NCBI GenBank assembly: GCA_029240245.1
Contig: JARBTJ010000004.1
Location: 1-64,000, forward strand
From: Herbinix sp.
Lineage (GTDB): Bacteria > Bacillota > Clostridia > Lachnospirales > Lachnospiraceae
DNA length: 64,000 bases
Direction: 5' to 3'
In this document: positions 8,881 to 62,088 of the stretch, one piece after another
How the letters are laid out: every line of letters begins with the position of its first letter
How positions within the stretch are numbered: position 1 is the first letter of the stretch
Program-made: the position numbers and the translations under genes
Notes under the pieces: model-generated
What the model saw: only the letters and a program-made list of their open reading frames with translations
What the model was told of the DNA's origin: nothing
The model's database searches: none

Positions 8881-9150
8881 AAAAAGCCCCAAGTATAATA
8901 AATACTTGAGACGAATAAAAATCCGCGGTACCACTCAAATTGAACAAGTCCACTCTTTCATATACAAATCATATATGCCATTCTAATAACGGTGATGGTT
9001 TCCGTCAACGCCTACTGTTAGTTCGGGTTGCCCTCAAAAGCCCATTCAGCCAAATACTTCATATCGCATTCCACCAAACTGCGACTCTCTGTAATGAAAT
9101 AATAAAGCTTACTCTTCTTTCTCAACGGTTTCACTTATTGATGAGTAAAT
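8881..9150 (-). promoter_or_regulatory. T-box leader (putative Trp specifier) with terminator
   Basis: Minus strand contains AGAGAG, GGTGGAATGCG distal loop, putative specifier GAA-TGG (TGG at 9042-9044), T-box AGTGGTACCGCGG (8923-8935) and terminator ctcaagtatttattatacttggggcttttttt. Confidence 0.9.
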
Positions 9151-37380: not shown

Positions 37381-37455
37381 GGTTCCGATCGAACCGAAGC
37401 AATCCGAACCTAAGCGCAACGCTGGGCAGAGAATCCCGGCGATGTGCTTAGGTTC
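37381..37455. other. Inverted repeats between convergent trkH and DUF3298 genes
   Basis: ggttc-cgatc-gaacc and gaacctaagc(37406-37415)/gcttaggttc(37446-37455) enclosing cgctggg/cccggcg. Confidence 0.65.
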
Positions 37456-37483
37456 AGGTTTCCAATATATATACATTCACGAC

Positions 37484-37622
37484 GATGCGGAGAGTAATAA
37501 CCTCCTCTTCCGAGGTTTTCTGCCAAACTTGTGCCAGTCCATCCTATCTATTTCGATGGATGCCCTCTCAGGCACATGGTCACCCAGAAAAACTATCGAG
37601 GGGTAATATTACTCTCCGCATC
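37484..37622. ncRNA. Candidate structured RNA or palindromic element (nested stems)
   Basis: gatgcggagagtaata (37484-37499)/tattactctccgcatc (37607-37622) perfect 16-bp arms; inside, ttttctg/cagaaaa, tgtgcc/ggcaca, tccatc/gatgga are nested in order. Confidence 0.5.
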
Positions 37623-37675
37623 ATCTTTTGGTATCTTAATTTTACTTCACGCACGATTACTACAGAAGGGGTATC

Positions 37676-46070: not shown

Positions 46071-46085
46071 ATATAAAATGAGCGA

Positions 46086-46300
46086 TGATAAAAGCTGCGA
46101 TTTATAAATTTCTTCAGAGAGCCGATGGTTGGTGTGAATCGGTGAAAGGATAAATCTTTCCACTTTTTGAGCTGTCGGTGATAAACCGAAAGGCCGGTGA
46201 CCTTTATCCTACCAGATCGAGTGGCTGTTTACGAAGCAGCAATTTGGGTGGCAACGCGGATTCCTTCCGTCCCTTATGTTTTAGGGGACAGAAGGAATTT
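46086..46300 (+). promoter_or_regulatory. T-box leader upstream of serS
   Basis: AGAGAGCC, GGTTGGTGTGAATC, T-box GGGTGGCAACGCGG, terminator attccttccgtccctta-tgtt-ttaggggacagaaggaattttttattt. Confidence 0.92.
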
Positions 46301-57000: not shown

Positions 57001-57155
57001 GTTTTGGAACTTTAGTTAAATATTACAATTTGTACTTGCAATTTATTTATGGATAGGTTATAATTAGTAATAGTTACTGTTATCAATAAATTCATTAGAG
57101 GTAGAAACTGCTCTTAAGTAATATTTTTCAATTTTATCCGTAGACTATAATTATT

Positions 57156-57275
57156 GGTTAAAGTGTCAAAAGGTGCTACGCACTTTTCATGCTACAATAT
57201 AATGATATGAAAGCTAGCTTGCATATCATTATATTGTAGCACAAAAGCACCGAAGGTGCTTTTGACACTTTAACC
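57156..57275. mobile_element. MITE-like palindromic element, copy 3 (inverted relative to copy 2)
   Basis: GGTTAAAGTGTCAAAAGGTGCTACGCAC...GCACCGAAGGTGCTTTTGACACTTTAACC; 6-bp direct repeat attatt at 57150-57155 and 57276-57281. Confidence 0.87.
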
Positions 57276-57301
57276 ATTATTTAAAATAACGAAAAGGAGA
57301 A

Positions 57302-60574: not shown

Positions 60575-61477
60575 TTATTTTCTCATCCACCAGGAAGAAG
60601 TTGCATAAGGCCGAAAACCTATGCTGTAATAGAATTGTTGTGATGAGCCGACAAAGGCGCGTTTTGCCCCCAAGGCACCGCAGCGCCGGATACCCTCCAA
60701 TACCGCTGCCTTTCCCAGACCTAATTTCCGATAGGCCGGGTCGGTTGCTACCGGTTCCACCAAAGCAAAATCGGAATCCGAATCAAACCACATACCACAA
60801 TAGGATACAAAGTCACCGTTCGGTGCTACTACTGCTATCTTTAAATCCAAGTTAACATTCGGTCGAATCATTTCTTTGAAGAATACCTGTTCCTTTTCAC
60901 TGGAAAATGTGTAGGCCCCTTCCCCATCTATCTCATGATTAAAGCCTTTCCATAATACCTGTCCGTATTGATATAGATCAAAAGTATCTTTTAGACTTGT
61001 AATATGAAAGCCCTCCGGCAGATTATAATGAATCTTTGCTAAATCAATCAGATAAACGCCGTCACTGTCTTTTTCTGATAGTGCGATGAATCCTGACTGT
61101 GCAGCTATTTCTTGAAAATAGGTATCCGTATCATTTATCATGATTTTAAATTGCCCGTTCTTACCCAAATTAGATTCTGCATATTCAAGCAGTTCTTTTT
61201 TTAGATAAGCGTATTCCTCGAACGCATAACAGAAGGCACCACCGAGTGTAGTATCAAATAATGCAGCTGCAATTATCTCAGCATCATCCTCCCATAAACC
61301 AATCCTTCCCAAAGAATTTTTCTCAAGATAGCTGTGCGTAACCATCCAATCCCATCTGCCGAAGGAAAATCCGGGGTAGTTTAATTTTAGTAAAAAGGTA
61401 CGTACCTTTTTATAGTCGTCTCCAAATTCTTCATCCCTGTAATTTCTGAACCGTATTGTCATAAATAATCTCTCCAT
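60575..61477 (-). CDS. GNAT-family N-acetyltransferase
   Basis: GMWFDSDSDFALVEPVATDPAYRKLGLGKAAVLEGIRRCGALGAKRAFVGSSQQFYYSIGFRPY. Confidence 0.9.
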   Translation of the reverse strand: MERLFMTIRFRNYRDEEFGDDYKKVRTFLLKLNYPGFSFGRWDWMVTHSYLEKNSLGRIGLWEDDAEIIAAALFDTTLGGAFCYAFEEYAYLKKELLEYAESNLGKNGQFKIMINDTDTYFQEIAAQSGFIALSEKDSDGVYLIDLAKIHYNLPEGFHITSLKDTFDLYQYGQVLWKGFNHEIDGEGAYTFSSEKEQVFFKEMIRPNVNLDLKIAVVAPNGDFVSYCGMWFDSDSDFALVEPVATDPAYRKLGLGKAAVLEGIRRCGALGAKRAFVGSSQQFYYSIGFRPYATSSWWMRK

Positions 61478-61550
61478 TCATCCATAATAATCTGACAAGC
61501 CTATTTACTTGTCAAACCAACAATTTAAGCTTCGCAAGAAACATAAAAAA

Positions 61551-61825
61551 AATCATTGTTTTTTGCCAAACAATGATTATACGTGTGCACATATAGGCAG
61601 AGCATTGTCATGCCCCGCCATCTATCCTTATCTGCATAATGAATCTATAATCTATATTTTGGCAATAAAAACAAAGCCCAACTACCAGGCATTTCATCGT
61701 TGTCCATAAATATAAATTACCGAATCATTTCTGCACCTCTTCCATATTTATTGTTACCTACCCTATTTCAGTAAAAGCGGACGGGACCTTCCATGCATCC
61801 TGAGTCTTTATTTACTGAAATAACC
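61551..61825 (-). ncRNA. Candidate orphan structured RNA with own promoter and terminator
   Basis: Minus strand TTGAAA-17-TATGGT promoter-like sequence upstream; stem tatttcagtaaa/tttactgaaata; stem ggcggggcat-gaca-atgctctgcc with two G-U pairs on the minus strand; terminator aatcattgtttggcaaaaaacaatgatttttttt. Confidence 0.55.
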
Positions 61826-61997
61826 ATATCATACAATATTTGTATTTTCAATAGCATATTTTATGCTAGATATAAATTAAAGCAAATCTCATGAAAGGTA
61901 AAAACACAATTTGATACGAATAGACTTATTCATGATGTGCCCTGTATCCCATGATGTTCAATATTTATACTAAAGAGACGACTGTAATCAACATAAA

Positions 61998-62034
61998 AAA
62001 GAACAAAATCAACCCAAGTAAGATTCTGTTCTTT
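61998..62034 (-). terminator. Terminator of the PHP gene
   Basis: Minus strand aaagaacagaatc...gattttgttcttttt. Confidence 0.7.
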
Positions 62035-62088
62035 CTTAATAAAATAAATTCAATTATTCTGTTAATAGATAACCCTTATCCGACATGA

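Follow-up and report, generated by a model that had tools for sequence, protein, structure and literature searches.

A conserved leader RNA with a three-codon uORF precedes a tandem GNAT acetyltransferase gene of Herbinix sp. and is a candidate ribosome-sensing transcription attenuator

The locus comprises a tandem GNAT gene and a long upstream leader

The window, i.e. the 64-kb stretch of Herbinix sp. DNA that was analyzed, carries on its minus strand a gene for a tandem GNAT acetyltransferase (60575..61462), whose ATG at 61462 is located behind GGAGAG; an alternative ATG is found at 61477. The gene is supported by a match to Pfam PF00583, by the starts of its orthologs and by a structure model with a pLDDT of 92. 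In a fold search the tandem GNAT MAB_4324 and mycothiol synthase were nearest (14-16% identity), and the tandem GNATs Eis and PamZ were ranked lower; these model-based matches name no substrate for the enzyme.

On the minus strand, a promoter-like site, a structured leader, a terminator and the GNAT gene follow one another. The promoter-like sequence TTGAAA-N17-TATGGT, which the original prediction had pointed out, is present at 61823..61851 with an extended -10 element (TG). It is a consensus match only, from which a transcription start near 61816 is predicted; a scan returned 18 such sites in 4 kb versus 12 expected, and alone the site is weak evidence. Folding and an inverted-repeat search place a 5' hairpin at 61763..61823, and the 12-bp stem formerly proposed here is an exact inverted repeat (TATTTCAGTAAA/TTTACTGAAATA, 61764-61775 with 61811-61822). 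This hairpin is absent from the leaders of relatives and is probably accessory.

Downstream of it lies a three-codon uORF, ATG-ATT-CGG-TAA (Met-Ile-Arg, 61717..61728), which was assigned from its Shine-Dalgarno (SD) sequence (61734..61740, in the context AAGAGGTG, kept in relatives) and from a conserved pattern. The combination of SD and three-codon uORF occurs once in the whole window. A long hairpin, SL1 (61633..61735), holds the uORF in its 5' arm; SL1 was defined by folding, by the covariance models R2 and R3 and by covariation and is the proposed anti-antiterminator. The 3' side of SL1 harbors the putative antiterminator strand (61648..61675, core UUGCCAAA at 61658-61665), assigned from duplex and switch energies. 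A long-range pair suggested earlier (ggtaacaataaa/tttattgcc) would use the UUUAUUGCC strand, which is the proposed antiterminator element. The 10-bp hairpin GGCGGGGCAU/AUGCUCUGCC, also part of the original prediction, was recovered by folding at 61596..61619; its sequence is not conserved in relatives, and according to the folding model it would occupy the apex of the antiterminator.

The leader ends in an intrinsic terminator (61545..61578) that is kept in relatives and that shows complementarity, through its 5' half and loop (UUUGGCAA), to SL1 on the 3' side of that hairpin. It had been described as near-ideal and as having no ORF to serve. A terminator is indeed present, but the first description was overstated, as its A+T-rich stem contains just two G-C pairs (own energy -10.3 kcal/mol), and it escapes a terminator scan in which three or more G-C pairs are required. 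The second does not hold, since the codirectional GNAT gene begins about 70-85 nt downstream of this terminator. The PHP gene, as anticipated, has a terminator-like hairpin of its own at about 61996-62036. Between the leader terminator and the GNAT gene, a second promoter-like sequence, TTGACA-N17-GATTAT (61487..61515, consensus match only), overlaps an inverted repeat and may also serve GNAT. This repeat, TGACAAG...CTTGTCA at 61487-61515, is a possible repressor operator. From this arrangement, and from the relatives described below, the structured minus-strand RNA is the long 5' leader of the downstream tandem GNAT gene and not an orphan RNA.

Fold strength and comparison with known RNA families

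The minus strand of the leader folds with -81.2 kcal/mol (z -4.94), and none of 200 shuffled sequences was equally stable, while the plus strand reached z -3.67. The strand asymmetry that had been taken to favor a minus-strand RNA is therefore real but modest. In a fold scan of the 64-kb window, windows over the leader ranked among roughly the best 2% of 638 and were surpassed in fold strength by several other intergenic stretches. Fold strength by itself is suggestive, not decisive; it is conservation that raises the leader above chance.

Other structures were observed elsewhere in the window. An intergenic stretch at 37481-37625 has a 19-nt closing stem that is 95% complementary (GACGATGCGGAGAGTAATA/TATTACTCTCCGCATCATC, 107 nt apart) and no relevant Rfam match, and the window 37401-37640 folds very strongly (z -12.9); it is a candidate structured RNA, by fold stronger than the GNAT leader. 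Just before it, a 26-nt hairpin (37401-37460, 81% complementary) is possibly a terminator or a part of the same structure. A long intergenic palindrome with 68-nt arms (81% complementary, spacer 0) is found at 57148-57283, and an inverted repeat with 26-nt arms (92% complementary, 38 nt between the arms) at 26-115. Two T-box leaders scored above the Rfam gathering score, at 8904-9134 (-) and 46076-46277 (+).

The original prediction had called for an Rfam scan. When the leader region was compared with 4227 models, including T-box RF00230, it matched no family at the gathering cut-off; the leaders of relatives likewise had no Rfam match. A ligand-binding riboswitch or a T-box with a terminator would account for a long structured leader that ends in a terminator, and T-boxes do occur twice elsewhere in the window, but no Rfam match was obtained at any relevant score and conservation resides in the SD, the uORF and the helix instead of in unpaired, aptamer-like stretches. 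We consider this reading extremely improbable.

Homologous leaders are found in other Lachnospiraceae

BLASTN searches of 99 relatives, 34 same-genus and 397 family genomes, phages and plasmids returned only short A+T-rich matches and no relatives of the leader. The promoter stretch TTGAAAATACAAATATTGTATGATAT was matched repeatedly, in unrelated contexts that include coding sequence, and these matches were dismissed as chance. In a synteny check, the GNAT and PHP orthologs in the genus were not adjacent; therefore, the junction of the two genes in the window is local. The first leader relative was reached through the GNAT ortholog (67% identity) of a Herbinix MAG (locus L102), where the order of the operon is leader, GNAT2 and GNAT. 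Its leader is collinear with the RNA of the window, with 71% identity over 103 nt and 82% in the terminator. The L102 locus appears to be carried by genome G002, which is counted in the same genus as that of the window. The best conserved block, AAAGAGGTGC(A/T)GAAATGATT(CGG/AGA)TAATT, consists of the SD and Met-Ile-Arg-stop, and the third codon is CGG in the window and AGA in L102, i.e. synonymous Arg codons.

By scanning upstream of other GNAT loci, two leaders from other genera were found, L035 (uORF peptide MIR) and L039 (MIP), in which a mini-ORF is followed by a terminator-like hairpin and then GNAT. At a further GNAT relative, L040 (genome C78, about 1415-1460), an SD and an eight-codon ORF (MIILNYIR) are located ~80 nt upstream of the gene, followed by a hairpin without a U-run; this is possibly a related leader acting on translation.

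Covariance models were subsequently used. Model R1, based on a single sequence, found only a coding-region match and was discarded. Model R2, built from the window and L039, matched L102 (E 5.5e-5 in 247 kb) and, weakly, L124 in genome G057, which was upheld by inspection as a leader with the uORF MSK, a terminator and a DJ-1/PfpI gene. Model R3, built from the window, L039 and L124, was run on 226 genomes. It recovered the G002/L102 leader, which is outside the model, at 50 bits and L035, also outside the model, at 26.5 bits (E 0.042), and it revealed four new leaders, L135, L136, L137 and L138 (E per genome from 4e-4 to 0.015). Each of them combines an SD with a three-codon uORF and a UUUGGCA-containing hairpin. 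In L136 this hairpin has no U-run, and that leader may act on translation. The genome sample was limited, the first stage of the genome search can miss relatives and the E-values of the models are rough. Weak R2/R3 matches (L123, L125, L127-L129, L139-L143, L145, L146, L149) were rejected because they were without SD and three-codon uORF, two viral pattern matches (L130, L131) were regarded as chance, and no match was obtained when plasmids were searched for the L138 leader.

In total, eight relatives were collected, all from Lachnospiraceae, so that the conservation called for together with the Rfam scan was found, with covariation in SL1. Every one of them has the SD, a three-codon uORF and the SL1 hairpin, and seven of the eight have the complementary terminator; L035 is without the UUGCCAAA/UUUGGCA motif. 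With the window included, the SD and the very short uORF expected of an attenuator leader are thus found in nine of nine leaders. The peptides are MIR in the window, L102 and L035, MIP in L039, MSK in L124, MRK in L135 and L137, MSR in L136 and MRR in L138. The genes downstream of the nine leaders are four GNATs, three Lsa-type ABC-F genes, one DJ-1/PfpI gene and, in L137, an ambiguous gene. L137 (1501-1730) is a typical leader with a terminator, and a phosphoesterase is encoded 242 nt downstream. L135, L136 and L138 stand directly before Lsa-type ABC-F ribosomal-protection genes. Their proteins, which are clipped by the locus ends, have NCBIfam NF000167 as best match with 481-560 bits, below its cut-off of 750; that of L136 passes NF000355. 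Leaders homologous to that of a tandem GNAT gene in the window thus precede Lsa-family ABC-F genes.

These placements bear on the proposed orphan RNA, a trans-acting sRNA of about 270 nt, in which case GNAT would depend solely on a promoter of its own (61515-61487). The RNA does have promoter-like and terminator sequences of its own, a second promoter-like site is available for GNAT, and a terminated RNA would accumulate under either model. An RNA without a link to a downstream gene would, however, hardly be expected 70-85 nt from a codirectional gene with the same placement in relatives. The relatives stay upstream of GNAT or ABC-F genes with no sign of independent movement, and the conserved core comprises SD, uORF and antiterminator, which a trans-acting RNA does not need. 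Of the original prediction, the conserved, structured RNA running from promoter to terminator therefore stands, and a transcript of ~270 nt may exist; its orphan status is abandoned, as the RNA lies upstream of GNAT with a conserved SD and uORF and its relatives hold the same place before GNAT and Lsa ABC-F genes. We regard a purely trans-acting RNA as very unlikely, although the leader may have a dual role as attenuator and trans-acting RNA.

SL1 covaries and is complementary to the terminator

RNAalifold yielded no predicted pairs for a MAFFT alignment (A4) of the four initial leaders, and the helix register was fixed by hand and by the covariance model. Covariation was analyzed in an alignment of nine leaders that was fitted to R3 and is thus biased toward the model. 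In this model-fitted alignment, 11 of the 17 pairs of SL1 showed double changes compared to 4.3 in shuffles, and the covariation score was reached by none of 500 shuffles. Pairing was possible in 94.3% of cells, compared with 40-48% when the partners were slid. The SL1 covariation and the model matches indicate that the uORF is buried in the anti-antiterminator hairpin.

Because UUGCCAAA in the 3' strand of SL1 is complementary to UUUGGCA in the 5' half and loop of the terminator, it is proposed to be an antiterminator. A terminator before the gene and an antiterminator overlapping it are thus indicated by sequence and folding only. The best SL1-terminator duplex was in the UUGCCAAA/UUUGGCA register in eight of the nine leaders. 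For the window it amounts to -16.5 kcal/mol, and no duplex as good was obtained in 300 shuffles. The duplexes of L124 (p 0.003), L138 (p 0.013) and L039 (p 0.04) were also individually unusual, whereas those of L102, L135, L136, L137 and L035, taken singly, were not unusual compared to shuffles. In L124, a compensatory change from G-C to A-U keeps the pairing (UUACCAAA/UUUGGUGA).

Folding predicts that this complementarity could act as a ribosome-dependent switch. In the leader of the window, forming the antiterminator was calculated to cost 11.9 kcal/mol with the uORF free and 0.0 when a 32-nt ribosome footprint covered the SD and the uORF. When the footprint was set to 30 or 34 nt, the antiterminator was the minimum-energy fold of the nascent RNA even without being imposed. 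The footprint lowered the cost in seven of the eight leaders tested, i.e. the window and six others; L124 showed no antitermination barrier in either state. After full transcription the two states are almost tied in energy according to the calculation, and the switch would therefore be decided during transcription by RNA polymerase.

The leader occurs in one copy in the genome, its distribution is patchy and its A+T-rich terminator is weak, as could be expected if it were homologous to working attenuators and had lost its function in the species of the window. The uORF, SD, SL1, antiterminator and terminator are all intact, however, and the duplex and folding switch of the window are among the clearest of the set, which makes decay very unlikely.

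Proposed mechanism and its signal

Taken together, we propose, with a probability of roughly 0.78, that the leader is a ribosome-sensing transcription attenuator of the GNAT gene, in the proposed form responsive to a drug. We infer that the leader is transcribed and its uORF translated, and the stalling signal and the GNAT substrate are proposed on the same footing. In unstressed cells a ribosome would stay only briefly on the three-codon uORF, SL1 would fold and hide UUGCCAAA, the terminator would form and transcription would end near 61545; even in this uninduced state, a short RNA of about 270 nt, ending at the terminator, would be produced. If a ribosome stalled where the uORF begins, most likely under a drug acting on the peptidyl-transferase centre (lincosamide, pleuromutilin, streptogramin A or nucleoside antibiotic), it would block the 5' arm of SL1 and thereby release the 3' strand for pairing with the 5' half of the terminator. 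RNA polymerase would then read through, and the GNAT so produced would either acetylate the drug or mitigate the damage.

A drug that arrests ribosomes at initiation or at the first peptide bond is the most likely signal, because only two codons follow the start, these codons vary and relatives serve Lsa-type genes. The same attenuator could instead sense the supply of isoleucine or arginine, given the Ile and Arg codons in the uORFs of the window, L102 and L035 and a third codon for Arg or Lys in eight of the nine leaders. An amino-acid signal is nevertheless highly improbable, as the codons vary among relatives (MIR, MIP, MSK, MRK, MSR, MRR), the uORF is without a run of one codon and the downstream genes are not those of amino-acid biosynthesis but include Lsa-type ribosomal protection.

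More tentatively, and with somewhat less than even odds, the attenuator may be a portable homologous cassette of Lachnospiraceae that has come to stand before unrelated genes (Lsa ABC-F, GNAT and DJ-1/PfpI) as a shared ribosome-stress regulon, in which the tandem GNAT would be an unrecognized anti-ribosomal-antibiotic enzyme. If true, the leader before GNATs and the DJ-1 protein would mark genes of anaerobic Lachnospiraceae as new candidates for drug inactivation or a role in stress, recognizable by the leader alone, and its signature (SD, M-x-[R/K] uORF, UUGCCAAA...UUUGGCA) could be used to list such genes genome-wide.

Comparison with known ribosome-sensing leaders

Antibiotic-responsive three-codon leaders have been described for ABC-F resistance genes (PMC9226507, PMC10201436). 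The vmlR leader of Bacillus subtilis has the uORF Met-Ile-Asn in SL-1, the anti-antiterminator, and an antiterminator with an apex hairpin (PMC9226507). It shares with the leader of the window a three-codon uORF in the first hairpin, an antiterminator that overlaps an intrinsic terminator and bears an apex hairpin, and a gene directly downstream. This likeness is one of architecture; unlike the leader studied here, that of vmlR controls an ABC-F protein and not a GNAT, and it additionally masks the main gene's SD. Its natural uORF variants MDN and MDK work and MRK works less well (PMC9226507), which fits the tolerant uORF proposed here.

The cplR leader of Clostridioides difficile, with the uORF MR[I/M] (Met-Arg-Ile), is induced by retapamulin and lincomycin (PMC10201436). 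Here, too, a three-codon uORF is hidden in a 5' hairpin and followed by a terminator, but the cplR terminator hairpin sequesters the cplR SD and the target is the ABC-F protein CplR, whereas the terminator of the window ends about 85 nt before the gene. In this respect L035 and L136 are closer to cplR. The Lsa-type leaders L135, L136 and L138 of Lachnospiraceae share with the window the SD, the three-codon uORF, SL1 with UUGCCAAA and the UUUGGCA hairpin (model R3), and differ in their uORFs (MRK, MSR, MRR) and in the downstream ABC-F gene. The uORF of LsaA from another lineage is MAGN (PMC10201436).

The rli80/hflXr leader of Listeria monocytogenes was, similarly, listed as a small RNA before it was recognized as a drug-responsive leader that carries a uORF and a terminator (PMC6310831); it differs in its 14-residue uORF with an RLR motif and in controlling an HflX-type GTPase (PMC6310831). 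In the open-access papers that were searched, no report of a three-codon-uORF attenuator before GNAT genes was found. Thus, the three-codon-uORF attenuator is an already known type, and what is new here are its gene targets and the leader family.
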